Shown: positions 16,712 to 50,635 of the stretch, piece by piece
Numbering within the stretch: the stretch's first letter is position 1
Layout of the letters: the number at the start of each line of letters is the position of its first letter
Source of the DNA: Porphyromonas canoris
GTDB taxonomy: Bacteria; Bacteroidota; Bacteroidia; Bacteroidales; Porphyromonadaceae
NCBI RefSeq assembly: GCF_000769115.1
Contig: NZ_JQZV01000010.1
Span: 1 to 64,000 of the forward strand
Length of the DNA stretch: 64,000 nt
Reading direction: 5' to 3'
Position numbers and translations under genes: made by a program
Notes under the pieces: generated by a model
Database searches by the model: none
What the model saw: the letters and a program-made list of their open reading frames with translations, nothing else
What the model was told of the DNA's origin: nothing

Positions 16712-16800
16712 GCAAGGTGTGTCTTTGTAACACAAACCGCAGTTTGTACCACAAAGACCCTTGCCCCGAAGGGGAAATGAATTACTCCAAAGTCGTAATT
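16712..16800 (+). other. oriT: oriT-like region of the host conjugative element
   Basis: Nested inverted repeats lie directly upstream of mobA: GCAAGG...GTCTTTGT pairs with ACAAAGAC-CCTTGC (16712-16764), enclosing an ACAAAC/GTTTGT stem. A CCCCGAAGGGG hairpin follows, then ATTAC...GTAAT around CTCCAAAGTCG (16781-16799). The same organisation is conserved at 40,373-40,461 and, inverted, at 50,547-50,635. Conservation next to three mobA genes makes it the best candidate for the relaxase nick region. The nick position is not determined. Confidence 0.7.
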
Positions 16801-16817
16801 AATAGAAGAAGCAACAG

Positions 16818-17228
16818 ATGAATAAGCAGACGGAAAGAGATCGCAAGCGAAAAGAGCTGAATAAGCCTCGCTGGGACAACTGGCATGTACGCTTGCCTGA
16901 CCCGAAAGACCAGCAACGGGCGATTGACTTGTTCCATAAATCAGGTGCGGAAACGAAGTCCGACTTCGTTCGGGCAAGGATATTGGGGGAGCATTTCAAG
17001 GTGATAATGGTAGATAAATCTGCCGTGGAGTACTATCGTAAGCTCTCCGAATTAACTGCCCAGATACATAAGATAGGTGTACTGTATAACCAAGCTGTAC
17101 GAGCCATCAATAGCTATCATAGCGTGAAGACTGCTCAGATACTGCTTGAGAAACTGGAGCAACTATCAGCTCAGATTATTGCTTTGCAGGAGCAGGCTGT
17201 CTCTCTGACCATTGATTACCGCAAGTAA
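16818..17228 (+). CDS. mobA: MobA-type relaxosome accessory protein
   Basis: This 136-residue basic protein has WDNWHVRLPDPKDQQRAIDLF and ETKSDFVRARILGEHFKV in its N-terminal half, a ribbon-helix-helix-like oriT-binding module. A helical C-terminal half follows, with IGVLYNQAVRAINSYHS. It is the accessory protein that should bind oriT and recruit the MobB relaxase. The start is 18 bases after the conserved oriT block and the stop overlaps the mobB start (TAATG). Two relatives occur in the window, at 40,479 and 50,530. Confidence 0.8.
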   Translation: MNKQTERDRKRKELNKPRWDNWHVRLPDPKDQQRAIDLFHKSGAETKSDFVRARILGEHFKVIMVDKSAVEYYRKLSELTAQIHKIGVLYNQAVRAINSYHSVKTAQILLEKLEQLSAQIIALQEQAVSLTIDYRK

Positions 17229-18508
17229 TGATTGCCAAGATTTCAGCAACGGAGAACCTCGGGGGTACGCTCGGCTACAACTTCAAGAAGGTAAATAAGA
17301 AGGAAGCAATACTTCTGCTGGCACATGGCTTGTACCAAAACAGAGCGGGCGAATATACGATGTCGGAGGTACTTGCAGATATGCAGGCATTGATACCCGA
17401 AAAGTGTCGAACAAAGAAAACGGTCTTCCATTGCTCGCTCAATCCCCATCCAGACGAGAAGCTGTCCGATGAAACGCTCTCGCAGATAGCTAAGGAGTAC
17501 ATGGAGGCTCTGGGCTATGGTAAGCAACCCTACATTGTGTTCAAGCACAATGATATCACCCGTGAGCATATACACATCGTATCGCTAAGGGTAGATGGTG
17601 ATGGTCGAAAGATCAATGACAAGTTTGAAGGCAGACGAAGCAAGAAAATTACGGATGCGCTGGAGAAGAAGTACCATCTAATTCCCAGCACAGAGATTAC
17701 AGATAAATCGCTACAAGAGCTCTCAAAGGTGGATATGGCAAAAGGAAATATCAAAGAGCAGGTAGCATCTATAGCTCGTTCTGTTCTGAAGCATTATCGC
17801 TTCTGTTCGTTGGGAGAACTCAATGCGATTCTTTCCCAATACAATCTTGCCGTAGAAGAGGTCAAGACAGAGTTTCGAGGGAAGAAGTACGATGGACTGG
17901 TCTATGTACCGACTGATGATAAAGGCGATAAGGTAAGTACATCCATCCATGCCTCGGAGATTGGTCGTGGTGTGGGCTATACAGCCGTGCAGAATAGGAT
18001 GCAACAATCTAAGCAAGCTATCAAGCCACTGATACCAGCTGTAAGGGAGAAAGTCCTACAAGTAATGCGTACTTCTCCCCAAACAGAGGAAGCACTGCGA
18101 CATCGATTGGAGGAGCAAGGTTTGCGAACGGTTATCCGAAAGAATGAGAGCGGGCGCATCTATGGTATTACGTTCATAGACGATGAGAATGGCATTGCTC
18201 TCAATGGTTCCCGACTAGGCAAGGGGTACTCGGCCAATACATTTAATGCCTACCTCTCCAACCTGACCTACAATCCATTTATGGATGAGACATTGTATGG
18301 TATTTCTTCTTCTCAATTGAAAGAAGCCCCAACTGTTCAACCGTTACAGTCAGATGCGGACGAGGGAGACAGCCTTGTTGATGAACTGGTAGATGACATT
18401 GTCGGTGACCTTCCTCTCGGTAGTAGCAATGATGATTGGAAAGAGGCGGCTTGGCAACGGAAACTTCGCAGGCAGAGCAAGGTTCATCTCAGACGAAGGA
18501 AGAGGTAA
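17228..18508 (+). CDS. mobB: MobB relaxase
   Basis: This 426-residue relaxase is of the Bacteroidetes MobB/MOBP type. It nicks oriT and pilots the transferred strand. The N-terminal domain starts MIAKISATENLGGTLGYNF, with a candidate catalytic Tyr at residue 17. It has the metal-binding motif HNDITREHIHIVSLRVDGDG around residues 105-124 (His-x-His). A basic C-terminal tail (KLRRQSKVHLRRRKR) follows an acidic linker. It is the only relaxase in the window, although three oriT-like sites are present. It is coupled to mobA by a one-base stop/start overlap. Confidence 0.87.
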   Translation: MIAKISATENLGGTLGYNFKKVNKKEAILLLAHGLYQNRAGEYTMSEVLADMQALIPEKCRTKKTVFHCSLNPHPDEKLSDETLSQIAKEYMEALGYGKQPYIVFKHNDITREHIHIVSLRVDGDGRKINDKFEGRRSKKITDALEKKYHLIPSTEITDKSLQELSKVDMAKGNIKEQVASIARSVLKHYRFCSLGELNAILSQYNLAVEEVKTEFRGKKYDGLVYVPTDDKGDKVSTSIHASEIGRGVGYTAVQNRMQQSKQAIKPLIPAVREKVLQVMRTSPQTEEALRHRLEEQGLRTVIRKNESGRIYGITFIDDENGIALNGSRLGKGYSANTFNAYLSNLTYNPFMDETLYGISSSQLKEAPTVQPLQSDADEGDSLVDELVDDIVGDLPLGSSNDDWKEAAWQRKLRRQSKVHLRRRKR

Positions 18509-18800
18509 GTCAAGGCAGGGTGTGATAAAGAGGACGGCATCGCACTCTTCACGGAGGAAATCGGAAATAGAGACGGAGAAAAGAAGAAATCTCCACGGAA
18601 GGACAGAGTGATAGTTCGGAAGAATGAAGTCAAACTTCCGAGGAAATAGATCTCCCCTCCGTGGAAAATAGAAAATGGTCACGTAGGGATCTACTGTTTT
18701 CTCTGTGAAGATACAGTTCGGTGAAAAAGGAAAGCAGCGAAGCCTACGCATTTGACTTTGACGAAATAGTGATTAGACAACGATTAAACAACAGATAACT
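18509..18800. repeat. mobB-mobC gap with CGGAAGAATGAAGT-type repeats
   Basis: This gap of 292 bases has no convincing gene. Around 18,612-18,645 it contains TTCGGAAGAATGAAGT followed by AAACTTCCGAGGAAAT. The same motif occurs twice in the non-coding stretch 27,779-27,830, upstream of the DUF3945 gene. Several CGGAGG/CCTCCG pairs could form hairpins. The function is unknown; it could be a regulatory or RNA element of this element family. Confidence 0.4.
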
Positions 18801-20804
18801 ATGGCACAAGAAGATGATTTGAGAGCATTGGGCAAGATTATGGACTTTATGAGGGGGATCTCTGTACTGTTCCTCCTCATTAACTGCTATTGGTTTTGCT
18901 ATGAAGCATTCCACACCTGGGGCTTGACGCTCTCGGTACTCAATAAGACTCTGATGAACTTTCAACGGACAGCAGGACTCTTCTCTTCGATCCTTTGGAC
19001 GAAGCTCTTTTGTGTGCTGTTCCTTGCCCTTTCTTGCTTAGGAACTCGTGGAGTTAAGGAAGAGAAGATTACTTGGGCTAAGATTTGGACGGTTCTGACT
19101 ATCGGCTTTGTGCTATTCTTCCTCAATTGGTGGCTACTGGCACTTCCGATTGGAGTCGTTGGTGCAGCTTCGCTCTACATCTTCACACTCTCTGTGGGGT
19201 ATATCTGCCTACTGATGGCTGGAGTATGGATGAGTCGCCTGCTGAAAAACAACCTAATGAACGATGTATTCAATACGGAGAATGAGAGTTTTATGCAGGA
19301 GACGAGACTGATGGAGAACGAGTACTCGGTCAATCTGCCGACACGCTTTTACTACAAGAAGAAATGGAACAATGGTTGGATCAATGTGGTCAATCCGTTT
19401 CGAGCTTCAATGGTCTTGGGTACGCCTGGCTCGGGCAAGTCTTTCGCTATCGTAAATAACTACATCAAGCAGCAGATTGAGAAAGGCTTTGCGATGTACA
19501 TCTATGACTACAAGTTCCCCGACCTATCGGAGATTGCCTATAACCATTTACGTACCCATTTGGATGCTTATAAGGTACAACCACAGTTCTTTGTGATTAA
19601 CTTTGATGACCCTCGTAAGTCGCACCGCTGTAATCCCATCAATCCAGCTTTTATGACGGATATATCAGATGCTTACGAGAGTGCTTACACCATCATGCTC
19701 AACCTGAACCGCTCGTGGATTCAGAAGCAGGGTGATTTCTTCGTGGAGTCTCCAATTATCTTGCTTGCAGCTATCATTTGGTTTTTGAAGATATACGAGG
19801 AGGGAAAGTATTGCACCTTTCCCCATGCCATAGAATTCTTGAATCGACCGTATGCCCAGATATTCCCGATACTCACTTCCTACGATGAGCTTGCCAACTA
19901 TCTTTCTCCCTTTATGGATGCGTGGGAGGGAGGGGCGCAGGATCAGTTGCAGGGACAGATTGCCAGTGCCAAGATACCGCTTTCAAGAATGATTTCACCA
20001 GCGCTCTATTGGGTAATGACGGGTGATGATTTCTCGCTCGACATCAACAATCCTAATGAGCCGAAAGTTCTTGTTGTGGGCAATAATCCCGACCGCCAGA
20101 ATATCTATTCGGCAGCCCTCGGACTCTACAATAGTCGCATTGTGAAGCTTATCAATAAGAAGCATCAACTTAAAAGCTCGGTGATTATAGATGAGCTACC
20201 TACTATCTACTTTCGTGGTCTCGATAACCTAATAGCCACAGCCCGAAGTAACAAGGTGGCAGTCTGCTTGGGGTTTCAGGACTTCTCTCAGCTTACCCGT
20301 GACTATGGGGATAAGGAGAGTAAAGTGATACAGAACACCGTGGGCAATGTTTTTAGCGGGCAAGTTGTAGGTGAAACGGCTAAGACGCTTTCCGAGCGTT
20401 TTGGCAAAGTGCTTCAGCAACGGCAGTCCATGACCATCAATCGTAACGACAAGTCCACATCTATATCTACGCAGATGGATAGCTTGATCCCTGCAAGTAA
20501 GATTAGTAACCTTACACAAGGTATGTTCGTTGGGGCTGTCTCTGACAATTTCGATGAACGCATCGATCAGAAAATCTTCCACGCTGAGATCGTTGTGGAT
20601 GTTGCCAAGGTCTCTGCTGAAACGAAAGCTTACCAGCCTATCCCCATCATAGCGGACTTTACAAACGAAAATGGCTCCGACAGTCTGCGTGAGACTATTG
20701 AAGCCAATTATCGCCAAGTCAAGCAAGAGGTGCTATCCCTCGTAGACTCTGAGACTGCTCGTATCAAAGCTGACCCAACACTCAGGAACTTACTTAGGGA
20801 GTAG
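18801..20804 (+). CDS. mobC: VirD4/TraG-type coupling protein (MobC)
   Basis: This 667-residue coupling ATPase brings the relaxase-DNA complex to the mating channel. The N-terminal region has four hydrophobic segments (about residues 18-150, for example LFLINCYWFCYEAF and VLFFLNWWLLALPIG). Next come Walker A (VLGTPGSGKSFAIV, about residue 205), Walker B region SSVIIDELPTIYFRGLD, and the VCLGFQDFSQLTRDYG sensor segment typical of TraG/VirD4 proteins of Bacteroidetes. It follows mobB after a 292-base gap. It is distinct from the VirB4-like TraG of the tra operon. Confidence 0.88.
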   Translation: MAQEDDLRALGKIMDFMRGISVLFLLINCYWFCYEAFHTWGLTLSVLNKTLMNFQRTAGLFSSILWTKLFCVLFLALSCLGTRGVKEEKITWAKIWTVLTIGFVLFFLNWWLLALPIGVVGAASLYIFTLSVGYICLLMAGVWMSRLLKNNLMNDVFNTENESFMQETRLMENEYSVNLPTRFYYKKKWNNGWINVVNPFRASMVLGTPGSGKSFAIVNNYIKQQIEKGFAMYIYDYKFPDLSEIAYNHLRTHLDAYKVQPQFFVINFDDPRKSHRCNPINPAFMTDISDAYESAYTIMLNLNRSWIQKQGDFFVESPIILLAAIIWFLKIYEEGKYCTFPHAIEFLNRPYAQIFPILTSYDELANYLSPFMDAWEGGAQDQLQGQIASAKIPLSRMISPALYWVMTGDDFSLDINNPNEPKVLVVGNNPDRQNIYSAALGLYNSRIVKLINKKHQLKSSVIIDELPTIYFRGLDNLIATARSNKVAVCLGFQDFSQLTRDYGDKESKVIQNTVGNVFSGQVVGETAKTLSERFGKVLQQRQSMTINRNDKSTSISTQMDSLIPASKISNLTQGMFVGAVSDNFDERIDQKIFHAEIVVDVAKVSAETKAYQPIPIIADFTNENGSDSLRETIEANYRQVKQEVLSLVDSETARIKADPTLRNLLRE

Positions 20805-20889
20805 TTAAAGGTGTTATCCCCTCAAAAAAATAGGATAAGATAAATTGATCCACCGCTGATAGTTGTGCAGTCTCAATAATTCGATTCAT

Positions 20890-21204
20890 TCATACCTTTA
20901 GGAACTCATCAAGAACGTCGTTGATAGAAATATCCACTCGCTCCAAATCAATTACTCGTGAGTTGTGAAGTTTTCGACTTAGCATTCTTGGCAATCCATA
21001 TTCTTCAAGCTGAAATACTAGTGGAGGAAGAAATAGATTTGATACCTTTGTTATGAATGGAGTTATACCTACATCACAAAGGAGTATACGCTTAGAAATC
21101 ACATTGATGCTACGTAGTAAAGAAACAAAGTTGAAGCTAACAAGCTTCTCAAATTCAAAATAATCTTCGATGGAGATTTCATCTGAAGTGACCGTTGCAG
21201 ACAC
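20890..21204 (-). pseudogene. Unrecognised gene fragment, about 104 residues
   Basis: The only start is a GTG at 21204. The frame stays open 14 more codons upstream, without an ATG, to stops near 21,245. The product (EDYFEFEKLVSFNFVSLLRS, then LLCDVGITPFITK and RKLHNSRVIDLERVDIS) looks like a real protein, but I do not recognise the family. It seems to be a C-terminal remnant. It sits exactly between the mob genes and the arsenic cargo, where insertion scars are expected. Confidence 0.35.
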
Positions 21205-21382: not shown

Positions 21383-21461
21383 TGCCGGAAACGTTAGGAA
21401 CAAACATTTCCAGCACCAAGCCTTTTTACGATAAAGTTAGATTAAGACTTTTGCCCTATTG

Positions 21462-22508: not shown

Positions 22509-22519
22509 ATGTTATAGTT

Positions 22520-27717: not shown

Positions 27718-28067
27718 TACGAGCTAGCTTTTTTCCTGTTCCACAGTTAAGTCATCACGCAGAATCTCGGATGAACCAAATAAAACTTCGGAAGAATGAA
27801 GTGGAACTTCGGAAGAATGAAATCATAAGTCCGAAGAAATTCCCCATTACTCACTGGATAGTCAAAAATAGTCTCCTTGAATTTTCGAGTTCCTCTATAG
27901 AGACTTAGACGAGATTACTTTATGTAATGCTTCAACTCTGACTGCAAGAACCTAATTACTATCGGTTTCCCATTATTTCCATCTTTATCCTCGGGTGATA
28001 AGCGGAGAGTTGCTCCTATATATATTTGCTGTCTGAAAGGTATTATTCAAATCAAATAGAGTGATTT
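27718..28067. repeat. Non-coding stretch with two AACTTCGGAAGAATGAA repeats
   Basis: There is no gene in this 350-base gap. AACTTCGGAAGAATGAA occurs at about 27,785 and again 20 bases later, followed by AGTCCGAAGAAAT. The same family of motifs lies at about 18,612 in the mobB-mobC gap. The two places are not adjacent to corresponding gene ends, so they look like dispersed regulatory or RNA elements of the conjugative element. The region ends at the DUF3945 gene. Confidence 0.4.
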
Positions 28068-39539: not shown

Positions 39540-39809
39540 ATGAAAATTATCATCGTAGAGGGCAAAGCGTGGGAGCAGCTCCGCTCCACCTTTGCCGACT
39601 TCATCCACCGCACGGAGCAGCTCATCGGCAATCCCCCCGAAACGGAAGCGTGGCTCGACAACGAAGCCGTATGCCGTAGGCTGAGCATCAGCAAGCGAAC
39701 CTTGCAGACACTCAGAGATACGGGCAAAATCCCCTTCTCTATGGTCGGACACAAGTGCTACTACAAAGAGAGCGACATCACGAAAGCACTGAACGCACAA
39801 ACAGAATGA
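39540..39809 (+). CDS. Excisionase-like helix-turn-helix protein 1 of E1
   Basis: This 89-residue protein has an N-terminal helix (GKAWEQLRSTFADFIHRTEQL) and a MerR/excisionase-type winged helix: WLDNEAVCRRLSISKRTLQTLRDTGKIPFSMVGHKCYY. Such proteins usually bend DNA at attachment sites to direct excision, or regulate the module. It lies 7 bases before the second HTH gene. The E2 copy at 51,533-51,802 is nearly identical. Confidence 0.8.
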   Translation: MKIIIVEGKAWEQLRSTFADFIHRTEQLIGNPPETEAWLDNEAVCRRLSISKRTLQTLRDTGKIPFSMVGHKCYYKESDITKALNAQTE

Positions 39810-39816: not shown

Positions 39817-40125
39817 ATGGCAGAGAATGAAATCATCACAAGCAATAGTCCTCAGATGCAAATGTTTTCTCAACTGATGAAGGGACTATTAGCTAAGCTG
39901 GAGCGTTATTGCGCCTCGGCTCGCCCGATACTAGACGGAGAGGTGTTTCTCACTGGTGAGGAAGTCTGCGAGCTACTCAAGCTCAGCACACGCACGCTCC
40001 AAGAGTACCGAAGTAATGGCACTTTAGCCTATTACAAGATAGGAGGTAAGATACTATACAAGCAGAGCGATATTCAAGCGATGCTCGAAAGGCATTATAA
40101 CCCCATTCTAACAGTCAGAAAGTAG
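39817..40125 (+). CDS. Excisionase-like helix-turn-helix protein 2 of E1
   Basis: This 102-residue protein has an N-terminal helical part (MFSQLMKGLLAKLERYCASA) and an excisionase-type winged helix (FLTGEEVCELLKLSTRTLQEYRSNGTLAYYKIGGKILY). It is paralogous to the preceding gene and cotranscribed with it. The E2 counterpart (51,220-51,525) is identical through the whole DNA-binding domain. Roles in excision control or in regulating the mob module are both possible. Confidence 0.8.
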   Translation: MAENEIITSNSPQMQMFSQLMKGLLAKLERYCASARPILDGEVFLTGEEVCELLKLSTRTLQEYRSNGTLAYYKIGGKILYKQSDIQAMLERHYNPILTVRK

Positions 40126-40372: not shown

Positions 40373-40461
40373 GCAAGGTGTGTCTTTGTACCACAAATTG
40401 TCATTTGTCACACAAAGACCCTTGCCCCGATAGGGGTATCAATCACTCCGAAGTCGTGATT
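40373..40461 (+). other. oriT: oriT-like site of E1
   Basis: This has the same nested structure as the host site: GCAAGGTGTGTCTTTGT paired with ACAAAGACCCTTGC, inner ACAAAT/ATTTGT stem, CCCCGATAGGGG hairpin, then AATCAC...GTGATT around TCCGAAGTC. Base-for-base it matches the E2 site more closely than the host site, but all outer stems are preserved. It lies 17 bases upstream of mobA. Confidence 0.7.
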
Positions 40462-40478: not shown

Positions 40479-40907
40479 ATGAAAAGAAAGCATACAGACA
40501 AGTCAGACGGCAGATGTGCCACCTGCCCACGATGGGACAGATGGCACATCAGAATACCCAAGCCCGAAGACCAGCAAAAGCTCATTGAGCTATACCGAAA
40601 GTCGGGAGCAAAGACCAAGAGCGACTATGTCAGAGGACGGCTATTGAACGAATCCTTTAAGGTCATCACAGAGGATAAATCCTCTGAGCCGTATTTAAGA
40701 GAGCTGGGCAACATCATCACTAAATTGAGGATCATCGGTGTGAGTTACAACGAAGCCGTTAAGACGCTCAACAGCTACCACTCGGTCGCCACAGCACAAA
40801 GAATGATACAGCAGCTCGAAAGATACTCCGCAGCTATCATCAAATTACAAGTACAAGCGATACAGCTGACAATGGCATTTGATAATCAAGCCAAGAAGGC
40901 TAACTAG
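40479..40907 (+). CDS. mobA: MobA-type relaxosome accessory protein of E1
   Basis: This 142-residue paralogue of the host MobA has CPRWDRWHIRIPKPEDQQKL, GAKTKSDYVRGRLLNESFKV and a C-terminal helix with IGVSYNEAVKTLNSYHS. A small N-terminal cysteine pair (CATC) is extra compared with the host protein. It should bind the adjacent oriT-like site. No relaxase follows: the next gene is an inverted restriction-modification gene. MobA therefore presumably recruits a relaxase provided in trans, such as MobB at 17,228. Confidence 0.8.
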   Translation: MKRKHTDKSDGRCATCPRWDRWHIRIPKPEDQQKLIELYRKSGAKTKSDYVRGRLLNESFKVITEDKSSEPYLRELGNIITKLRIIGVSYNEAVKTLNSYHSVATAQRMIQQLERYSAAIIKLQVQAIQLTMAFDNQAKKAN

Positions 40908-41013: not shown

Positions 41014-44000
41014 CTACATGCTTTTGTATTCTGTACAGACTTGTATGTATATATACGAAGACAAGTCTGAAATTCGTTCTCTCTTTTCAGCATTTTGGGG
41101 TAAAGTTGCTATTCTAGACAATATTGCAAGTCTAGAATGTAGCCTATTTGAGGAATCAAATTTAGGCATACATAGATTTGACTTTTTCAGACTAAATCCG
41201 TTAGTTTTAAAGGTCGCATGTATATAAGAGCGGACTATAGTACTATTTAAAATAGCATTTATGTAGTGAGACTCATCTTCTGATATAAAGTTCCCTTTAA
41301 TATCTTGGCTTATTATTATGGTATGCTTTACACAGATTGCTTGTTTGAGTTCTCCCCAAGGGGTATGCACTGGGCGAATAACACTAGAGCAAAAGTTAGA
41401 ATTATCTCTTGCAGCGACAATGAAAGGGGCAAATGTATATGGTCCAATCTTTGATAGTGCATAAAACTCTTTACCACGATGCATATTTTTACTTTTATCG
41501 GATTGCTGTTCCAATAGTTCTTTATGTTTGCAGAAGTATGTTGCTAGCTCTTCATTCGATTCTAACAACTTGTCCAATGGTATTGGGAGGCTCGTATTAT
41601 CTTGGTTATAGGGGATAATATGGAAGTTATTGTCCCAGTTCACAGAATATGGAGTAATTGCTGGTCCTTCAATCATCGGATAAAGAAGTTCAACAGGGAA
41701 ATCCCACCCATTTACAGGGATATTATCTACTTTATATTTAGACGCCTTTAGTATTTTGTTTTTGAAACGATAGTGGTTGGGCTGATTTGAACAACCTACA
41801 CCAACCATTTTAAAAACCTCAAAAGGTGTTGATTCAACTCCTGTTCTATAATTGTAGAATGTATCACCAATGATAGCAGAAAAATCAAAGCGAGCAGATA
41901 CATATGTGAATTGAGTTGAATTCTCGGCTAGCTGTCTAGCTGATACCTCTTTTATATCTAAATACTCTTCCGCATCAATGAATGAAGCACAATTATTGAT
42001 AACTAAGTCGTTTACTTTGTCTTTTTTTGAGATAGAACGAACTTTGACTCCATCTTTATAGTCTACAAATTGAGATGAATAATAGTAAGTATTGAAGTCT
42101 TGGGATACAGACTTTTTCCCAACTTTGAATGGTCTCAGAGGTGCACACCAGCGGTCAAGTTTCTGCAAATAAAGTCTCTCTTTTTTTTCATCATCAATGT
42201 AGAAATTACGAAATTCTTCATATGAGTTCTGGGACATCAAACTATCAGGCATAAGAAATGCAAGAATACCATTGCGATGTAACCAATTCGTTGCCGCAAC
42301 ATTGGATATAAGGGCGCAGATGTTTAACTGAGCTCCACCATACATGCCATCATTGCAGAATATATGCCTAATATTGCAAAACTCCTTAATTTTTTTGGTG
42401 TAAGCACTAGGAAGATGTTCCCATTTTACCCAAGGTGGATTTCCTACGATTAAATCATGCTTCTGCAACCTAGCAATAAGCATAAAGTTGGTCGTTATAC
42501 GTATCCAAATACCATCCCATTTGTTTTTATGGAGCTTTACTAGGTCTACTGCCAACTTTTTTACCGACTCCATCAGAGTTACCGAACTCTTTTCCTCTTC
42601 ACTAAAGCCCTGTATAATGCTTTTGTAAAGAGCTTCTGGACTCTCGGCTTTCACGAGTGCTTGTAAGTTACTCATATTTTTTCCAAAATCAGCTTTGTTG
42701 ACAAAACTGACAGGTAATAGTACCTTTAACTGCCCAAACTTATTGTTGTTTATTGCATAACGATAACAGTCTACTCCATCGACACTCTCTCTGATAGGAA
42801 CAATTGCAGAGTCTCCGAGGAATATGGGTATTTCTACGTCTTCAACTTCGCAAAATTGCTGAATAGCAATATAATAACTGACGCGTGCAGATAATACAGA
42901 GAGGGGATTGATATCAATACCGTGTACTCTGTTAAGGATAGAATTCAATAACTCTTTTCTCTGACTTTTTGATAGCTCGTTTATATCGATATTACCTACG
43001 ACTTTTTTGATTAAAGCAATAATGAAGATTCCAGAGCCACAACAAGGGTCAATTGCCGTCCATTGTGTTTTGGTTATTGTCGTTAAAGCCTCTGTTACTA
43101 CACAGTCTGCAAGCCATTCAGGAGTAAAGTATTCACCCATTGAGTGTCTCACAGACTGAGGAATTATGCTCATATATAAATCCTTGAAAATATCTATAGG
43201 ATTATATTTGACATTAAGAGAAAAAGAAGAATAGTCATCTAATGTTTTTATAATTTCTCTGATATCCTTCCAAAAACCTTCAGACCATTGACTGGAATCA
43301 GCATACCAAGAGAAGAAATCTCCCTCTAGAAAATTTCTAATCTCTAAACTTGTGTATGAGTATCCGTCTTCCATTTTTTGGAAGAATTTTTGAGTTTTAT
43401 CAAATGCCAGAACGGACAAGTCGTGATATTCATGAGTTTCCTCATTGAAATTTAGCTTGTCCACAACTTTACAGGCTATTAGCTTTACTATTATAGCATA
43501 AGTTGTTTGCAAGGCGAATAATGCCTTATACTCCGTTTCGGTATTTGATATGTTACAGTCAAAAATGAGAGATAGATCCTTTCTTCTTTTTGCAATATCA
43601 TTACTTTTACCATTATCTGCCACAGATAAGTGCATTAGCTCCTTCCATTCAGAGTACAACATCTCAGACTTTTCTGTGATGTCTGATGTTAATTGATTGT
43701 ATAGTATTTTTGCAATTTTCTTTGAAACGGATAATGACTTTGGTGATATCGAGAAGTCCTTTACGATATTAGATGGATCAAATTTCTTTGATTGGTTATT
43801 TAGAATAGCCTTAACAATTCTGTCAATATCATCCACAGTTATAGTCCTCAGAGCTGTATTTCTAACAACATCACCTATAAATTGAAAATAGGCAACTTTT
43901 ATTCCATCCGTTAATATAGCATCATATCTGATATTTTCATTTTTATCAATAGCAATAAGATAATCCTTTACTTGCTCAAATGCAGATGTGATTTGTTTCT

Positions 44001-44322
44001 CTGTTGTAAGTTTGGTGTGATGTTTATATTCAATAATTATATTATTAACTACGGCATCTAAACGCCCATGACCACTTTTGCGAGATGAAAGCCCTTCGAA
44101 TTTATGCACAATACCTTCTATTGGGGATTCTTTGCTAAAAGATAGTTCTATCCCTAATTGGGATCTAACAAGGTAATATATCTCTCTTTCAAAAATACTT
44201 GAAGTATCTGCTTCACTATTAGATAGCTCACAGTTCCTTACGATTTTCGTAAGGACAGAATCTATCAGAGAACGGTATTCCCCACTCTTCAGCCATCTTG
44301 ATATGTTTGAATAGTTGCTCAT
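41014..44322 (-). CDS. Fused restriction-modification enzyme (type IIG-like) of E1
   Basis: This 1,102-residue enzyme appears to combine a nuclease, an adenine methyltransferase and a target-recognition region. The N-terminal PD-(D/E)xK-like region has GRLDAVVNNIIIEYKHH. The methyltransferase has GEYFTPEWLADCVV, motif I IDPCCGSGIFIIAL and motif IV IVGNPPWVKWEHL. The C-terminal 350 residues are probably the specificity domain. I choose the ATG at 44322 because the -7 box at 44,387-44,394 lies inside any gene started at 44448. A+T content is much higher than in neighbours, which suggests acquisition. It has no partner gene; a single-chain system is expected. Confidence 0.78.
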   Translation of the reverse strand: MSNYSNISRWLKSGEYRSLIDSVLTKIVRNCELSNSEADTSSIFEREIYYLVRSQLGIELSFSKESPIEGIVHKFEGLSSRKSGHGRLDAVVNNIIIEYKHHTKLTTEKQITSAFEQVKDYLIAIDKNENIRYDAILTDGIKVAYFQFIGDVVRNTALRTITVDDIDRIVKAILNNQSKKFDPSNIVKDFSISPKSLSVSKKIAKILYNQLTSDITEKSEMLYSEWKELMHLSVADNGKSNDIAKRRKDLSLIFDCNISNTETEYKALFALQTTYAIIVKLIACKVVDKLNFNEETHEYHDLSVLAFDKTQKFFQKMEDGYSYTSLEIRNFLEGDFFSWYADSSQWSEGFWKDIREIIKTLDDYSSFSLNVKYNPIDIFKDLYMSIIPQSVRHSMGEYFTPEWLADCVVTEALTTITKTQWTAIDPCCGSGIFIIALIKKVVGNIDINELSKSQRKELLNSILNRVHGIDINPLSVLSARVSYYIAIQQFCEVEDVEIPIFLGDSAIVPIRESVDGVDCYRYAINNNKFGQLKVLLPVSFVNKADFGKNMSNLQALVKAESPEALYKSIIQGFSEEEKSSVTLMESVKKLAVDLVKLHKNKWDGIWIRITTNFMLIARLQKHDLIVGNPPWVKWEHLPSAYTKKIKEFCNIRHIFCNDGMYGGAQLNICALISNVAATNWLHRNGILAFLMPDSLMSQNSYEEFRNFYIDDEKKERLYLQKLDRWCAPLRPFKVGKKSVSQDFNTYYYSSQFVDYKDGVKVRSISKKDKVNDLVINNCASFIDAEEYLDIKEVSARQLAENSTQFTYVSARFDFSAIIGDTFYNYRTGVESTPFEVFKMVGVGCSNQPNHYRFKNKILKASKYKVDNIPVNGWDFPVELLYPMIEGPAITPYSVNWDNNFHIIPYNQDNTSLPIPLDKLLESNEELATYFCKHKELLEQQSDKSKNMHRGKEFYALSKIGPYTFAPFIVAARDNSNFCSSVIRPVHTPWGELKQAICVKHTIIISQDIKGNFISEDESHYINAILNSTIVRSYIHATFKTNGFSLKKSNLCMPKFDSSNRLHSRLAILSRIATLPQNAEKRERISDLSSYIYIQVCTEYKSM

Positions 44323-44386
44323 TGCTATGTCTTTATCAAAGTTCTTTTTTATATAAATTGTCGGCTTTAACTCCAAGATATATCTA

Positions 44387-44394
44387 CAAAGGTA
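44387..44394 (-). promoter_or_regulatory. -7 box for the E1 restriction-modification gene
   Basis: On the minus strand TACCTTTG matches TAnnTTTG and lies 65 bases upstream of the preferred ATG. A second TACCTTTG, on the plus strand at 44,490-44,497, faces the element end, so the two promoters diverge about 100 bases apart. The 44,450-44,641 stretch otherwise holds no gene. Confidence 0.5.
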
Positions 44395-44641
44395 CGATAT
44401 CAAGGAGCTTATAAGCGAAAGATTTAGGGAATTATTTATCAGAAACAACGATTTTCTTTGATTTCAGTCGTTTTTCATCGGATAATCAGTACCTTTGCGA
44501 GTAAGAAGTAAGGGATATTTGTAAAGTTGCAAAACCAAGAAGCAAGAAGTACTTCGCTCGTTTCTTATTCGTTCCCCTTAGCCGAGTAGACACATTACTA
44601 TCTACTCAATATCAACCCATTAACTCTCTACAATCGGATTT

Positions 44642-44863
44642 TATGCGGAGATCTGCGATTTTCGTACAGCTAAGGACATCGGTATCGACCGACCCGAGAA
44701 AAATGAAATCCTACACAACATTCTACCAACACCTGAACAGGAGGATTTTATCAAGCGATTGATGGAGTTCGCCAAGACGGGCAATGCTACCGTCTTAGGG
44801 CGTGAGCCCCTAAGCGAACGTGAGGAAAAGGCGAAAATGCTTATCGCAACTGATTACGCGAGG
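44642..44863 (+). pseudogene. Middle fragment of the split methylase/helicase
   Basis: In frame this encodes [20 protein letters not shown], then a segment with [18 protein letters not shown] and [17 protein letters not shown] (about 74 residues). It is the direct continuation of the protein broken at 36,215 and joins to FARKMSLDLRMIDPAYED at 55,168. It has no start of its own and runs 9 codons into E2 before a stop at 44,888-44,890. It is host-gene sequence trapped between two insertions 217 bases apart. Confidence 0.85.
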
Positions 44864-44925
44864 AGAAGATATACAGATGAGTATATATAGCAGAAAATCA
44901 GAAGAATGAGTCTTTGTAAATGGGA

Positions 44926-44940: not shown

Positions 44941-45060
44941 GTCAACGAGCGAGCTTCTTTCCCTTTCTTTCTTTTGCAATCTCTCAATGAACACCTATTT
45001 TGATATTGCAAAGGTAGTTTATTTTGAGCAATAAAGAGTGCCTTAACTTGTTATAAAATT

Positions 45061-45122
45061 GAATTATATACCATTTTTATGGCGTATAATTCATCCTTAT
45101 TGGAGTCACTTTAGTATCTTTG
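45061..45122 (+). promoter_or_regulatory. Promoter and operator of the E2 controller gene
   Basis: GAATTATA (45061-45068) pairs with TATAATTC (45085-45092), a palindrome just upstream of the -33 region. TATCTTTG (45115-45122) is a strong -7 box. The palindrome is positioned like a C-protein operator of restriction-modification controllers. Confidence 0.6.
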
Positions 45123-45145
45123 CATCAAAATATTGTAGCTCAACA

Positions 45146-45385
45146 ATGAATAGGAACTTAAATAGAATAAAAGCTGTATTAGCGGATAGAAATAAAACTA
45201 GCAAATGGCTTGCAGAACAGTTGCATAAAGATCCTGCTACTGTTAGCAAGTGGTGTACTAATGCTAGCCAGCCTTCACTTAAAACATTGTTAAATATATG
45301 CAAAGCCCTGAACGCAGATCTTAGGGAGGTTGTATGTATTGAGTTTACGGATGAAGGTATGTCTTATGAAAAGAATGAAAACTAA
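45146..45385 (+). CDS. XRE-family regulator, probable restriction-modification controller (C protein)
   Basis: This 79-residue Cro/C1-type helix-turn-helix protein has WLAEQLHKDPATVSKWCTN (two-helix motif) and SLKTLLNICKALNADLREVV. The ATG at 45146 is preferred: an upstream in-frame ATG at 45059 would place the -7 box (45115-45122) inside the gene. It ends 9 bases before the restriction-modification gene. Size and location match controller proteins that delay nuclease expression; autoregulation through the upstream palindrome is inferred. Confidence 0.75.
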   Translation: MNRNLNRIKAVLADRNKTSKWLAEQLHKDPATVSKWCTNASQPSLKTLLNICKALNADLREVVCIEFTDEGMSYEKNEN

Positions 45386-45394
45386 GAGAAAGTG

Positions 45395-48300
45395 ATGCAA
45401 GATATAAAATTACAGATACATACCCTCGTTAAAAAGTATGAACAAAATAAAGACTTTTATTGCTCTTCGAGATTTAACGAAACAGAGCTTCGTAGCCAGT
45501 TTTTAGATCCTTTGTTTGAGGCGCTTGGCTGGGATATCCGTAATGTATCTAACCGTAGTACTAATGAACGAGAGGTTCTCTTAGAGGAATCACTCAGAGA
45601 AAATGCATCAACACACTCCAAAAAACCGGACTATACATTTCGTCTATACGGAGAACGTAAGTTTTTTCTTGAAGCAAAAAAACCATGCGTACGGATTGAA
45701 GAAGATAATGAACCTGCAAAACAAGTTCGAAGATATGGATTTACAGCTGGGCTAAAGATATCAGTTCTTTCCAACTTTGAATACCTCTTTATTTATGAAA
45801 CTTCAAGTCCTGTAGAAGATAATGACTCCCTTACCAAGTATCGAATCAAGGAATATCACTATACCTCCTACGAAGACGCTGCAGAGGAGTTACTTAAATA
45901 TTTAGGTAAGGAATCAGTGTATAGTGGGCAATTTGACTCAGAATGGAAAGATATCGTACTAAATATTGATCATAGATCTATTGACAAACTATTTTTAGAT
46001 CAAATAAACAGCTGGAGGAAAATGTTGGGAATGGAGATATACTCCTATGATCCTAACATTGACGCTGACTTTTTGGGTGATATTGTTCAGAGCTATATTA
46101 ACAAGATTTTATTTCTTAGAGTTTGCGAAGATCGAAATATTGAAACTTATCAGGCTTTGCTTAATATCGCCGAAAATGATAGTTACTCAGCTTTAATACA
46201 AAAATTCAGGGAAGCTGACCGAAAGTATAATTCAGGGCTTTTTGATGAACTGCTTTCTGAGAATGTCATTGGACAAATAAGTTCATCATTTTGGGTAATT
46301 ATCCGTCAATTATATTACCCCGAAAGTCCATATTCCTTTGCGGTTCTTTCGTCTGACATCCTTGGTCGGATATACGAAATCTTCTTGGCTCAGAAGATTG
46401 CTATTCAAGACGGAGAGGTTGTTCTCGTTGATAAACCTGAGAACATTGAACGTGATATCGTAACAACCCCCAATTATATCGTTCGTGAGATCTTAAATCA
46501 GACAGTGAACGATGTAATTCGAGAAAAAACAGATTTACAGCTAAATGAATTGAGATGTGCGGATATAGCTTGTGGTTCCGGTGCTTTCTTGTTAGAGTTG
46601 TATCAGTTGTTGTGTGATGCACTAATAGATTATTATGTAATACATGACCCTTCACAGCTAATTCGAACTAACGTTGATTCATATAGGCTGCCTTACAGAA
46701 CGAAATGCCGTCTACTTACGAATTGTATATATGGCTTTGATAAAGATTATAATGCTGTTGAAGCCTGCAAATTTGGATTACTACTTAAACTTCTAGAGGA
46801 TGAAGATTTAGATACATTGTCTGATCAGCATCCAATACTACCCAGGATGGATAATAACATCTTCTATGGTAATAGTTTATTGAGCCCAAGTGATGTGCCC
46901 GAGGGGTTAGCTGATGAAATTAATCCTTTTGATTTTGGGGATAGGCAGTTTGACCTGATTGTGGGCAATCCTCCTTATATGAAAACGGAGGACATAAAAA
47001 ACTTTACCCCCTCTGAAAAAAAATTATACCAAACAGAGAATCGCTATGTATGTGCCCATAAGCAGTATGACAAGTACTTCTTGTTCATAGAACGAGCTCT
47101 TACTCTCCTTAAAGAAGGGGGCTATTTAGGCTATATCGTTCCAAGTAAATTCATGAAGGTGGGAGCTGCTAAACCTTTACGAGGACTCATAGCGAATGGG
47201 AAGTTCTTACGGGCATTAACTTTTTTTGGTGCTCATCAAGTCTTTGAAGATAAATCAACTTATACCTGTATTATTATCTTACAGAAAGGAGAAAATGCTC
47301 GGTTTCAGTATTCAGAGGTAGAGCAATTTGATAAGTGGCGAGTTCGAGAGGAAAGTTCATATACATTCACTTCCAGAGACTCTAATCAACTTTCAGATGA
47401 AACTTGGGTTATTTGTACTGATGTAAACCAACATCTCTTTGACAAGATTACAGCTAATGCCAGCCCCCTTGTAGATATCGTAGGGGAAGATAATATCTTT
47501 AATGGAATTCAAACTAGTGCAAACCGAATTTACGTGTTTGAACCAGAATCTGAAGAAGACGATTTGTTTACTTTTACAGCATTCAATAGAAGGGTTTATC
47601 AGATAGAGAAGTGCGTTACAAAGCCCTATTTTAAGACAACTCAAGGAGAAAATGCTCTGAGTACTTATCGAACTTTTAAGCCCAATGCTCGTGTTATATT
47701 TCCATACAAAAAGGATGCAGAAGGTAGGTTAGAGCTTATGTCACTACCCTCAATTGAACAGAATTATCCTTTTCTTCATAGGTTTCTTCTAGATTTCCAG
47801 AGTGAATTAGCAAAACCATCAAGAAGTATACAGCCCGCCCCTGTGACTCCTGATGAGTGGTATCGTTATGGTAGACATCAATGTTTAGAAGCCTGTGAAA
47901 TAAGTGAAAAGATTATAGTAGGAGTATTAGCTCAGTCAGATAAATATGCAGTTGATACACAGGGCACACTAGTTTCTTCTGGAGGTACTGCTGGCTATTG
48001 TATGATAAGCCTACCTGAGACTAGTAATTATTCAATCTACTATATTCAAGCTCTATTGGGATCTCTTCAAGGAGAGTGGCTTGCATCTCTTTATGGGGAG
48101 ATATTTCGTGGTGGATATATTGCAAGGGGAACAAAAGTTCTTAAGCAAATACCTATCAGAACTATCAACTTCGATAATCCTATTGAGGTTTCTCAACATG
48201 ATGAAATCTCAGAGAGACAAAGAACCCTTATTGAACTTGGAGAGCGGATTGCGAATATGAGAGAAAACCATAGAAGAGCGATTCCTCTCAAGCGGCAATT

Positions 48301-48409
48301 TAAGGCTCTAAAGGATGAGCAACAAAGGGCAATAAATAGACTTTATGGTCTAACGACAAATGAGGCTTCTAAAATCCCGATAATTAAGAATATATATGCA
48401 GCTAATTAA
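45395..48409 (+). CDS. Type IIG-like restriction/methyltransferase enzyme of E2 (Eco57I-like)
   Basis: This 1,004-residue enzyme has an N-terminal nuclease domain of the HsdR_N/PD-(D/E)xK kind: DYTFRLYGERKFFLEAKKP, with Asp and Glu-x-Lys. A helical linker follows, then an adenine methyltransferase domain (TTPNYIVREILNQTV, motif I CADIACGSGAFLLELY, motif IV LIVGNPPYMKTED). The C-terminal target-recognition region is of the TaqI/Eco57I style (GGTAGYCMISLPE). An in-frame GTG one codon upstream is a weaker start. It overlaps the following methyltransferase by 14 bases. It is A+T-rich relative to the mobile module. Confidence 0.82.
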   Translation: MQDIKLQIHTLVKKYEQNKDFYCSSRFNETELRSQFLDPLFEALGWDIRNVSNRSTNEREVLLEESLRENASTHSKKPDYTFRLYGERKFFLEAKKPCVRIEEDNEPAKQVRRYGFTAGLKISVLSNFEYLFIYETSSPVEDNDSLTKYRIKEYHYTSYEDAAEELLKYLGKESVYSGQFDSEWKDIVLNIDHRSIDKLFLDQINSWRKMLGMEIYSYDPNIDADFLGDIVQSYINKILFLRVCEDRNIETYQALLNIAENDSYSALIQKFREADRKYNSGLFDELLSENVIGQISSSFWVIIRQLYYPESPYSFAVLSSDILGRIYEIFLAQKIAIQDGEVVLVDKPENIERDIVTTPNYIVREILNQTVNDVIREKTDLQLNELRCADIACGSGAFLLELYQLLCDALIDYYVIHDPSQLIRTNVDSYRLPYRTKCRLLTNCIYGFDKDYNAVEACKFGLLLKLLEDEDLDTLSDQHPILPRMDNNIFYGNSLLSPSDVPEGLADEINPFDFGDRQFDLIVGNPPYMKTEDIKNFTPSEKKLYQTENRYVCAHKQYDKYFLFIERALTLLKEGGYLGYIVPSKFMKVGAAKPLRGLIANGKFLRALTFFGAHQVFEDKSTYTCIIILQKGENARFQYSEVEQFDKWRVREESSYTFTSRDSNQLSDETWVICTDVNQHLFDKITANASPLVDIVGEDNIFNGIQTSANRIYVFEPESEEDDLFTFTAFNRRVYQIEKCVTKPYFKTTQGENALSTYRTFKPNARVIFPYKKDAEGRLELMSLPSIEQNYPFLHRFLLDFQSELAKPSRSIQPAPVTPDEWYRYGRHQCLEACEISEKIIVGVLAQSDKYAVDTQGTLVSSGGTAGYCMISLPETSNYSIYYIQALLGSLQGEWLASLYGEIFRGGYIARGTKVLKQIPIRTINFDNPIEVSQHDEISERQRTLIELGERIANMRENHRRAIPLKRQFKALKDEQQRAINRLYGLTTNEASKIPIIKNIYAAN

Positions 48410-49994
48410 AGATGCAACAAGCCAGAAACTTAGAGGGGCATACTACACTCCCGCTACAATAGCCAATTTTATCTTGCGTTGGGGTATAAATGGAGAAGAG
48501 CGTCTTGATATACTCGAGCCAAGCTGTGGTGATGGAGTATTCTTAGAGTGCTTGGCGAATAATAATGTGCCTTATGATAGCATTACTGCCGTAGAATATG
48601 AAGCGGAAGAAGTTGAAAAAGCTCGTGCTATTAGATTAGCCAATGCAAATATTATTAATTGTGATTTTCATCAATTCTGTCTTAAAACAGATCTGAGATT
48701 TGATTTGGTAATTGGTAATCCCCCATTCATTCGATATCAATATTATGATAAAGAGCAACAATTACTAGCCGATCAAATATTTGAAAAAGCAAAATTAAAG
48801 CGCTCAAAGCAGAGTAATGCTTGGGTAACATTTGTTGTTGGTTCGACTCTACTACTACGCAATCAGGGTAGAATGGGTTTTGTAATTCCATCTGAATTAC
48901 TTATGGTTAAGTATGCACAACAACTTAGAAAATACCTATCCAAAACCTTCAATAAAATAAACATCATATCATTCAAAGAATTAGTTTTTGACGAAATTCA
49001 ACAAGATGTAGTTTTACTCCTCTGTGAGAAGAATAATACCAAGGAGCATAAAATTGAACATATTGAAGTTAAAGATATAAAGGAGCTTCTGCAGCTTAAT
49101 CCCTGTGAATTCAATTCACCAACAAAGAAAATTGATTTCTACACAGATAAGTGGACTTACTATTTCTTAGATCAAAAGGAGCTTGACCTGTTGGAGAAGA
49201 TAAAGACAGGTAAGGGAAATACCATTTCAACTTTTGCCAATATTGAAGTTGGAATTACAACAGGTGCTAATAATTACTTCACGGTATCAGATAAGATTGT
49301 ACAAGAATATCAACTATTTCAATATGCATATCCGATGGTCGGACGAAGTATACAAGTAAGTGGAGTTTCTTTTACAACAGAAGACTGGGAAGAAAATGTT
49401 AAAACAGGGGCTAAGGCATACCTCCTTGCATTCCCCAATGAATTCAACGGTAAAGATACTGATGGCATAAAACATTACATAATGCATGGAGAGAAACTCG
49501 GAATTCACAAGGGTTACAAAACTGGCATCCGAGAACAGTGGTGGGTGGTGCCTTCCATAAAGCTCTCGGATGCCTTCTTCTTGAGGAGGAACAATATTTA
49601 CCCCAAATTTGTCTTAAATGAAACTGGTGCATACACTACAGATACTATGCATCGAGTATTCATCAAAAATGGAGTAAACAAGAAAGCCTTTATCGCAAGT
49701 TATTACAACTCTTTATCATTTGCCTTTTCAGAAATTCTTGGTCGAAATTTTGGAGGAGGCTGTTTGGAGCTTATGCCAAGTGAAGTCGGTGAGGTATATT
49801 TACCCTATCGAGTTGAAAACGAGCAGATATTTGAACATATCGATGAGTTATTAAGAGCCAAGGCAACCGCTGAACAAATCCTAGATTTTACGGATGACTT
49901 TATTCTATGTCAAGGGATGGGGTTAAGTGCTGAAGAAGTACGGCTTGCTCGATCTATTTGGCATAAAATACTCAATCGAAGGTTGAATCGATAA
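48396..49994 (+). CDS. Adenine-specific DNA methyltransferase of E2
   Basis: This 532-residue N6-adenine methyltransferase has KLRGAYYTPATIANFILRWG (motif X), ILEPSCGDGVFLECL (motif I) and LVIGNPPFIRYQYY (motif IV). The C-terminal specificity region ends at NFGGGCLELMPSEVGEV. It overlaps the preceding gene by 14 bases, so translation is coupled. Many Eco57I-like systems pair a nuclease-methylase with a separate methylase that protects the second strand of an asymmetric site; that role is inferred here. Confidence 0.85.
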   Translation: MQLIKDATSQKLRGAYYTPATIANFILRWGINGEERLDILEPSCGDGVFLECLANNNVPYDSITAVEYEAEEVEKARAIRLANANIINCDFHQFCLKTDLRFDLVIGNPPFIRYQYYDKEQQLLADQIFEKAKLKRSKQSNAWVTFVVGSTLLLRNQGRMGFVIPSELLMVKYAQQLRKYLSKTFNKINIISFKELVFDEIQQDVVLLLCEKNNTKEHKIEHIEVKDIKELLQLNPCEFNSPTKKIDFYTDKWTYYFLDQKELDLLEKIKTGKGNTISTFANIEVGITTGANNYFTVSDKIVQEYQLFQYAYPMVGRSIQVSGVSFTTEDWEENVKTGAKAYLLAFPNEFNGKDTDGIKHYIMHGEKLGIHKGYKTGIREQWWVVPSIKLSDAFFLRRNNIYPKFVLNETGAYTTDTMHRVFIKNGVNKKAFIASYYNSLSFAFSEILGRNFGGGCLELMPSEVGEVYLPYRVENEQIFEHIDELLRAKATAEQILDFTDDFILCQGMGLSAEEVRLARSIWHKILNRRLNR

Positions 49995-50104
49995 AGACTG
50001 CTGTCGCTGGATAATAAAGAATTCGTGGATGGTTCTATTGAAGCTATTACAGTTTATCGGAAGTAATGAGATAAAAGTCAATATCCCTTAGTTGTAAGTC
50101 GTCA

Positions 50105-50530
50105 CTATTGAATTATCTCCCTCCTTCTATATGCAAGAGTTAGCTGTATCGCCTGCATCTGTAGCTTAATGATCGCTTCCGAGTAGACTTCGAGCTTGCG
50201 GATCATTATCTGGGCAGTTTTAACCGAATGGTAGCTGTTGAGCGTCTTGACGGCTTCATTGTAGAGAATCCCTATTCTTCTTGTTAGGGCGACAATACTG
50301 TTCAACTCTCTGAGGTAGGGTTCGGCAGTCTTATCCTCTATAATGACCTTAAAGGATTGATTCAAGAGCTGTCCTCTGAAGTAGTCGCTCTTGGTCTTCG
50401 CGCCCGACTTTCGGTACAGCTCGATGAGCTTCTTTTGGTCTTCGGGGTTCGGTATTCTGATGTGCCATCTGTCCCATCGTGGGCAGGTGGCACATCTGCC
50501 GTCTGGCTTGTCTGTATTCTTTCTTTTCAT
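50105..50530 (-). CDS. mobA: MobA-type relaxosome accessory protein of E2
   Basis: This 141-residue protein is close to E1 MobA: CPRWDRWHIRIPNPEDQKKL, GAKTKSDYFRGQLLNQSFKV, IGILYNEAVKTLNSYHS. It should bind the oriT-like site 17 bases upstream of its start. No relaxase gene is present in E2, so it presumably serves as adaptor to a helper relaxase. A gap of 110 bases separates its stop from the convergent methyltransferase gene; no terminator is obvious there. Confidence 0.8.
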   Translation of the reverse strand: MKRKNTDKPDGRCATCPRWDRWHIRIPNPEDQKKLIELYRKSGAKTKSDYFRGQLLNQSFKVIIEDKTAEPYLRELNSIVALTRRIGILYNEAVKTLNSYHSVKTAQIMIRKLEVYSEAIIKLQMQAIQLTLAYRRREIIQ

Positions 50531-50546
50531 TGGTTCGTTTTTCTTT

Positions 50547-50635
50547 AATCACGACTTCGGAGTGATTGATACCCCTATCGGGGTAAGGGTCTTTGTGCGA
50601 CAAATGACAATTTGTGGGACAAAGACACACCTTGC
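50547..50635 (-). other. oriT: oriT-like site of E2
   Basis: Inverted relative to the other two sites. From the minus strand: GCAAGGTGTGTCTTTGT, ACAAAT/ATTTGT inner stem, ACAAAGACCCTTAC, CCCCGATAGGGG, then AATCACTCCGAAGTCGTGATT. Only a few bases differ from E1. A further inverted pair (ATCTGAA and TTCAGAT, about 50,663-50,702) lies beyond it in the gap to the DUF3408 gene. Confidence 0.7.

Follow-up and report, generated by a model that had tools for sequence, protein, structure and literature searches.

The 64,000 nucleotides analysed here, positions 1 to 64,000 of contig NZ_JQZV01000010.1 from Porphyromonas canoris (assembly GCF_000769115.1) and hereafter called the window, harbor a conjugative transposon in which two smaller elements, E1 and E2, are nested. 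The transposon has an origin of transfer (oriT1) followed by mobA1, mobB and mobC, and also a SNF2/N6-methyltransferase gene that we refer to as BIG. Intact BIG proteins of about 2000 amino acids are seen in relatives; the window copy is split, its N-terminal part ending at 36218 and its helicase part resuming at 55168, with an SNF2 match (24.2 bits) just below the Pfam cut-off of 24.9 and a Helicase_C match above cut-off. E1 (about 36.2-44.65 kb) and E2 (about 44.85-55.18 kb) both lie in this gene, in opposite orientation and about 220 bp apart, and each consists of two tandem tyrosine recombinases, small helix-turn-helix (HTH) proteins, an oriT, a mobA gene and a type IIG restriction-modification (R-M) cargo. 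We consider, with a probability of roughly three in four, that E1 and E2 are integrative satellites that bring their own oriT and a matching MobA adaptor, lack a relaxase and borrow the MobB of the host. This reading draws, at the level of sequence, on the anatomy and junctions of the elements, their lack of a relaxase, the purifying selection acting on satellite mobA, host-like cassettes, the co-variation of the two halves of MobA and spread that appears independent of the host.

E1 is flanked by copies of a core, TTYTATGCGGARAT, at 36205 and 44639, and an in-frame fragment of BIG (44639-44864) separates it from E2. The alternative that E1 and E2 make up one composite element with inverted ends was rejected, because of this piece of the target gene and because each type is found alone in relatives. 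The possession of an integrase and a defined attachment site is a property that both share with integrative mobilizable elements (IMEs), and their target, the SNF2 helicase gene of a conjugative element, is the location of the IME_SNF2 type. A Pfam scan covered 20 proteins of the window, those of E1 and E2 being compared with all of Pfam; the latter are recombinases, HTH proteins, MobA, a DUF3408 protein and R-M enzymes, with no mating-pore genes among those scanned. The relaxase that a canonical IME owns is absent, as the same scan gave none and no PF03432 match lies between 36.2 and 55.2 kb, other relaxase families not having been sought genome-wide. The combination of this lack with an oriT resembling that of a conjugative helper is a trait that E1 and E2 share with oriT mimics.

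The three oriTs can be aligned across their full 89 nt, the block CTCC(A/G)AAGTCG is present in all of them, and each folds into a nested hairpin followed by two smaller 3' hairpins. The fold z-scores of oriT1, oriT2 and oriT3 are -5.68, -5.00 and -4.49, respectively, and for none of them was any of 200 shuffles equally stable; oriT3 is inverted relative to the other two. The core motif (GTCTTTGTN3ACAAAN6TTTGTN3ACAAAGAC, at most 3 mismatches) occurs at exactly three places in the 2.2 Mb genome, namely these oriTs, and in 24 of the 38 genomes of a family sample, and the reversed pattern, used as a control, gave no match in the 38 genomes. Stem pairing was assessed in 40 distinct oriTs of 48 collected. 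Watson-Crick pairs fill 304/320 cells of the outer stem and 204/240 of the inner stem, both of which belong to the motif used for alignment, together with 200/228 cells of the 3' hairpin, which lies outside the motif (38 oriTs, two having no anchor). Among 1000 column shuffles, which ignore relatedness, 2 reach the value of the outer stem and none that of the inner stem or 3' hairpin. The spacer triplets are paired in only 36/120 cells, yet above all shuffles.

The three MobC_2 (PF19514) matches of the genome all lie beside these oriTs, with 155, 149 and 137 bits for a gathering cut-off of 27.5; against NCBIfam Bacteroid_MobA (NF041324) the mobA genes score 99, 74 and 67 bits, below the curated cut-off of 150. 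Host MobB scores 452 bits with Bacteroid_MobB (NF041325), above the cut-off of 400. A first-pass annotation of this DNA had noted that the hairpins and the conserved block are common to three sites, each next to a MobA-type gene, and had placed MobB and the coupling protein in the host element only. Both statements hold: the alignment, the fold and the MobC_2 matches agree on the former, and mobB is the sole PF03432 match in the window and mobC the only coupling protein among the 20 scanned. A sequence search of the PDB gave 10 matches for MobA at E values of up to 1, one of them a weak match to PcfF (E 0.0089), and for MobB no match. Short direct repeats (CGGAAGAATGAAGT-like, with 21-nt spacing) at 18596-18668 and 27768-27840 bracket the segment with the coupling protein and arsenic resistance genes, and are possibly the trace of an insertion.

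The N-terminal part of MobA falls into classes that we label N, E and S, each with a characteristic oriT core. Among 23 hosts with a full or near-full mobB, 6 are of class N, 16 of class E and 1 of neither, whereas 24 units without a relaxase comprise 20 of class S or S-like and 4 of class N. Distances were correlated over 20 of the 23 hosts, leaving out a duplicate (G009:C7), a copy with no full oriT (G013:C24) and an outlier (G003:C92). The oriT distance follows the N-part of MobA (r 0.85, 0/5000 permutations; 0.88 when partial on MobB) far more than it follows MobB (r 0.19, p 0.051) or the C-part of MobA (r 0.18, p 0.066), while the C-part follows MobB (r 0.82, 0/5000 permutations). The same division is seen in individual pairs. 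Twelve host pairs of different class have MobBs more than 93% identical; their oriTs differ by 33% and their MobA N-parts by 35%, but the C-parts by only 3%. For 72 class E pairs whose MobBs are less than 75% identical, the differences are 12.5% in the oriT, 26% in the N-part and 19% in the C-part. Hosts G003 (class N) and G005 (class E) share mostly 86-100% identity to either side, with 96-100% in the upstream 200 bp and 90-100% from +100 to +1450, but the 50-bp windows that cover the oriT and the start of mobA, four in number, have 78, 76, 44 and 76%. We read these patterns as those of a two-part adaptor, the N-part of which would read the oriT and the C-part of which would dock MobB. In class S MobA proteins (40479-40907, 50105-50530), the RWDRWHIR strand is also preceded by a CxxC motif (RCATCP), which neither host class N nor host class E has and which may be a metal site in a dimer.

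Satellites have also been found with a host-like oriT and mobA. Comparison of the G021 satellite with the host element of the same genome shows 90-100% identity only over the oriT, mobA and the start of mobB; the boundary window has 74% and the remainder 31-64%. The shared piece is a 615-bp cassette corresponding to window positions 16693-17307 and cut at mobB codon 27, the ends of which are identical in G021, G013 and G026 (94% identity to the window host) and G031 (89%). An inverted repeat, AAGAAAGAAGCTGG...CCAGCTTCTTTCTT, follows codon 27 in all four copies (L076, L142, L145 and L086) and is perhaps a terminator or a capture scar. Because the copies have the same ends and the same inverted repeat, they represent one cassette in several elements rather than four independent captures. 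The copy in G031 adjoins a C5 methyltransferase and an NgoFVII-type gene.

Elements of both types recur in relatives. E1-type elements, recognised by one or both junctions, occupy the same BIG codons in G035, G029, G005, G026, G007 and G025 as well as in Tannerella forsythia OH1426 and Prevotella sp. oral taxon 299; E2-type elements are found at the second BIG site in G021, G013, G026 and Prevotella nigrescens F0103, and G026 carries both types, as the window does. A search of plasmid records with tblastn, which gave 9 records, all below 60% identity, helped lead to the Prevotella cases. The 49 kb read of P. nigrescens NZ_CP072340.1 contain one mobB, one mobC, a host oriT-mobA and two satellites without a relaxase, whose oriTs have one mismatch each; one satellite lies in the SNF2 gene and the other splits a topoisomerase gene near residue 316. 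The layout of three mobA genes and one relaxase is therefore not peculiar to the window genome. The topoisomerase gene of the conjugative transposon (L185, 22000-36800) represents a second satellite target, and Prevotella disiens (L016) may share the site. Other satellites lie elsewhere; G011 has two tandem copies at a degenerate site, the second without recombinases. At L063 and G007:C4, a single contig carries both halves of the target gene, separated by about 138 kb, and the satellite is found at the N-terminal one.

Between the window and G035, P. circumdentaria (G029) and T. forsythia, synonymous divergence (dS) of the host target gene is 1.61, 1.66 and saturated, respectively, versus 0.29, 0.30 and 0.17 for satellite IntA; for G026 both genes are saturated and the comparison is uninformative. 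Since divergence is far lower in satellite than in host genes in 3/4 comparisons, the satellites appear to move between host elements. Their cargo includes type I R-M systems (L013, L055, L064), a TmtA-like protein (L011), AbiE (L076) and an Eco57I-domain protein (L052). The tested large proteins of L059 and L063 gave no PADLOC match at E 1e-15, L051 carries an outer-membrane protein, and in the P. nigrescens satellites the cargo comprises peptidases as well as a transporter with an outer-membrane protein. Judged from these genes, satellite cargo is not always defence.

A mobA gene without mobB had been regarded in the first-pass annotation as an unusual minimal kit, a view that does not stand for this family. 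At 24 of the 42 family motif sites, mobA is accompanied by no mobB or by at most about 72 codons of it, while 15 have a full or near-full mobB (codons 1-366 of 426 in G014), 2 have no mobA and 1 is cut by a contig end; the tally was made by hand, with lower-scoring mobA matches taken in only in part. The mobA gene is intact in 22 of the 24 relaxase-less units. The ratio of nonsynonymous to synonymous change (dN/dS), restricted to pairs with dS below 1.2, has a median of 0.16 (range 0.07-0.33; 34/78 pairs) in satellites and is 0.19 in hosts (6/28 pairs), and on these ratios satellite mobA is under purifying selection. Of the two sites with no mobA match, L146 (G003:C49:26197) is a possible pure oriT mimic, its motif being perfect and next to DUF3408 and HTH genes. 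The other, L138 (G015:C1:77184), adjoins a reading frame which we take to be an IS30-like transposase.

Several observations weigh against the proposal that these units borrow a relaxase. The mobA gene is broken in two of them (G018:C2 and G026:C80:26554). Relaxase-less modules are found in 18 genomes, of which 9 also have a close MobB, defined as full or near-full and at least 60% identical, for a chance expectation of 8.5 (18/38), so that helpers are not enriched. Both facts fit the idea that the satellite oriT-mobA pairs are decaying leftovers of mobABC modules and that satellites travel only passively inside the host transposon, as do the remnants of mobB (codons 1-27, 1-62 and 1-70) and of mobC that adjoin some mobA genes, and a mobA fragment in G001:C38 with neither mobB nor motif. 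Decay of this kind is nevertheless an unlikely explanation in view of the many intact mobA copies with a dN/dS near that of the hosts, the maintained stem pairing of the oriTs, the end of the host-like cassette 27 codons past mobA, and the low divergence of the satellites in 3/4 comparisons, which points to elements that move themselves. The two-part adaptor is likewise not without exceptions. The N-part of MobA also correlates with MobB (r 0.49, 0/5000 permutations; 20 hosts), so the halves are not fully independent; the same-class hosts G003 and G021, with oriTs of 94% identity, fall to 78 and 61% where mobA begins; in G031, a class N MobA is joined to a class S-like oriT, contrary to the class pairing; and of the MobA residues that are invariant in hosts, six (five in the C-part) are missing from most of 15 class S satellites. 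Across 19 hosts, 43 C-part positions are invariant, and the satellites keep on average 71% of these versus 42% of the variable ones. In oriT3, finally, the lower arm reads CCTTAC instead of CCTTGC, with the loss of two outer base pairs.

A further difficulty for borrowing lies in class S itself, which is found in 0/23 of the mobB-carrying hosts, and the compatibility of a class S MobA with the window MobB is therefore one that we infer. The term oriT mimicry, used in the first-pass annotation, accordingly fits the near-copies of the host cassette in G021, G013 and G026 (the oriT of G031 being mixed) better than it fits the window satellites, which bring this separate class. The first 71 residues of MobA2 gave 7 matches in 393 genomes of the order, none of them in a class S relaxase host: five lie in the window's family, one is the T. 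forsythia satellite (G385) and one a class E host (G354). The MobB nearest to the T. forsythia satellite is only 46% identical and has a different oriT, which likewise weighs against borrowing; the genome with the P. disiens satellite (L016) also has MobBs of 74-76% identity. The true partner might thus be a different relaxase, either an unsampled host with a class S oriT or one encoded at the three further PF03432 matches of the genome outside the window, on C8, on C5 and, weakly (27 bits), at C2:74944. We regard this as improbable. None of the three loci has an oriT motif or a MobC_2 neighbour, some satellites share the class of a co-resident host (G021), and the nearest relatives of satellite MobA with an adjoining relaxase have a MobB of the window's family. 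The region around the weak match (L048, G000:C2:62243-82242) also has distant integrase matches and is perhaps another element.

Satellite MobA might instead act mainly as an interference factor that binds MobB or the host oriT and restrains host transfer, in favor of the satellite or the cell. Relaxosome accessory proteins are described as binding oriT and perhaps touching the relaxase (PMC8136818), so that MobB could be titrated by a diverged copy, and several satellites also carry defence cargo. A pure inhibitor would, however, need no adjacent structured oriT, an argument tempered by the fact that the 24 units were picked at motif sites and the association is partly selection; interference as the main role seems to us no likelier than a foreign relaxase. 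The first-pass suggestion that satellite MobA could redirect the relaxase, or compete for it, is a conjecture, close MobBs being co-resident no more often than chance predicts.

The proposal already present in the first-pass annotation, of an oriT plus an adaptor that borrow MobB, is hence the best supported, by the capture of a cassette, by the co-variation of one half of MobA with oriT and of the other with MobB, and by recurrence in relatives, the act of borrowing being its conjectural part. E1 and E2 would each excise and integrate by means of their own tandem recombinases. The N-terminal part of MobA would read the satellite oriT, and its C-terminal part would dock the MobB of the host or of a related element. 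MobB would then nick the oriT, after which the satellite strand would be exported by the coupling protein MobC and the Tra pore of the host. In the recipient, the copy would integrate into BIG of a conjugative transposon already present there. A broader scheme, which we hold only tentatively and at somewhat less than even odds, is that oriT and MobA form a portable specificity cassette circulating between conjugative transposons and nested, relaxase-less, often defence-carrying satellites. Satellites would recruit any MobB of the family whatever the oriT class of its host, hosts would re-acquire cassettes and so switch oriT type, and the transposon would be a shared chassis with docking genes (SNF2/methyltransferase, topoisomerase) for stacked satellites. 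The features of the window are collected in Table 1.

Table 1. Features of the host conjugative transposon and of satellites E1 and E2 (positions in the window)
Feature	Position	Strand	Basis
oriT1, host conjugative transposon	16712..16800	+	Alignment, motif, fold (nested hairpin, two 3' hairpins)
mobA1, host accessory/adaptor (PF19514 MobC_2), N-terminal class N	16818..17228	+	Pfam, NCBIfam, class comparison
mobB, relaxase	17228..18508	+	PF03432; NCBIfam Bacteroid_MobB above cut-off
mobC, TraG/VirD4-type coupling protein	18801..20804	+	Pfam; NCBIfam Bacteroid_MobC above cut-off
BIG, N-terminal part of host SNF2/N6-methyltransferase gene (satellite target)	31756..36218	+	Pfam, relatives
E1 left junction, attachment core TTCTATGCGGAAAT (codons FYAEI)	36205..36218	+	Relatives' junctions
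E1 tyrosine recombinase IntA	36488..37741	+	Pfam
E1 tyrosine recombinase IntB	37751..39040	+	Pfam
E1 small gene, counterpart of E2 51533-51802 in inverted repeat	39540..39809	+	Repeat homology only
E1 excisionase-like HTH_17 protein	39817..40125	+	Pfam
oriT2, satellite E1	40373..40461	+	Alignment, motif, fold
mobA2 (E1), N-terminal class S	40479..40907	+	Pfam, class comparison
E1 cargo, type IIG restriction enzyme-methyltransferase	41014..44448	-	Pfam, cargo search
E1 right junction, attachment core TTTTATGCGGAGAT	44639..44652	+	Relatives' junctions
In-frame host BIG fragment between satellites	44639..44864	+	Relatives
E2 left junction in BIG (codons DYARK)	44846..44864	+	Relatives' junctions
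E2 HTH regulator	45059..45385	+	Pfam
E2 cargo, type IIG restriction enzyme-methyltransferase	45392..48409	+	Pfam, cargo search
E2 cargo, Eco57I-type methyltransferase	48396..49994	+	Pfam, cargo search
mobA3 (E2), N-terminal class S	50105..50530	-	Pfam, class comparison
oriT3, satellite E2	50547..50635	-	Alignment, motif, fold
E2 DUF3408 protein adjoining oriT3	50730..51218	-	Pfam
E2 excisionase-like HTH_17 protein	51220..51525	-	Pfam
E2 second HTH_17 protein	51533..51802	-	Pfam
E2 tyrosine recombinase IntB2	52397..53752	-	Pfam
E2 tyrosine recombinase IntA2	53667..54887	-	Pfam
E2 right junction, return to BIG (GACTTTGCCCGAAAGATGAG)	55168..55187	+	Relatives' junctions
BIG C-terminal helicase part	55183..56739	+	Pfam, relatives

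Typing based on relaxases would class elements like E1 and E2 as non-mobile, yet they are apparently spreading independently of their host elements, and several of these apparently spreading satellites bring R-M or AbiE cargo. The natural exchanges of oriT and MobA around a near-constant MobB make the choice of oriT by a relaxase directly testable in Bacteroidota, and two satellites in one helper gene provide a clear case for the study of parasites of conjugative elements. Each half of the design is already known. Searches of the open-licence PubMed Central literature gave no description of the two together, as integrative satellites of Bacteroidales that are nested and carry an oriT plus an adaptor, and none of a nested relaxase-less mobA satellite in this order.

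Conjugative transposons of the Bacteroides mobABC type are represented by the host, the MobB and MobC of which exceed the NCBIfam cut-offs, whereas the satellites have no mobB, mobC or tra genes. Among mobilizable elements of Bacteroidales, the MTnPi elements of Prevotella intermedia include one group with two tandem integrase genes, like E1 and E2, but most types have relaxase and primase genes (PMC4755523). Streptococcal IMEs in snf2, traG or maff2 of integrative and conjugative elements of the Tn5252 superfamily also sit inside conserved helper genes, and two can occupy one such element, as in the window; they are defined by their own relaxase and are described, for these targets, with serine integrases, whereas E1 and E2 have tyrosine recombinases (Phage_integrase) and no relaxase (PMC5357655). 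The small enterobacterial nikA plasmids pCERC7, NTP16 and pU302S likewise combine an oriT and an accessory protein with no relaxase, and NTP16 is reported as mobilised by R64, but they are replicating plasmids with a NikA-type protein and are not nested in their helper (PMC9282650). The closest parallel in mechanism is the pWBG749 family of Staphylococcus aureus, in which relaxase-less oriT mimics are mobilised in trans by a helper relaxase, oriT specificity is set by a ribbon-helix-helix accessory factor (SmpO) whose gene lies between oriT and relaxase, and hosts have switched oriT type (PMC4652767, PMC8136818). Experimentally, swapping the first 17 residues of SmpO shifted oriT specificity (PMC4652767, PMC8136818), and oriT with smpO45 was mobilised by a helper with a non-matching SmpO, mobilisation of the oriT alone being undetected (PMC4652767). 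The pWBG749 mimics are plasmids of Firmicutes, the natural ones being described as oriT rather than oriT plus smpO (PMC4652767, PMC8136818). E1 and E2, by comparison, are integrative elements of Bacteroidales, nested in their helper, in which the adaptor gene travels with the oriT.

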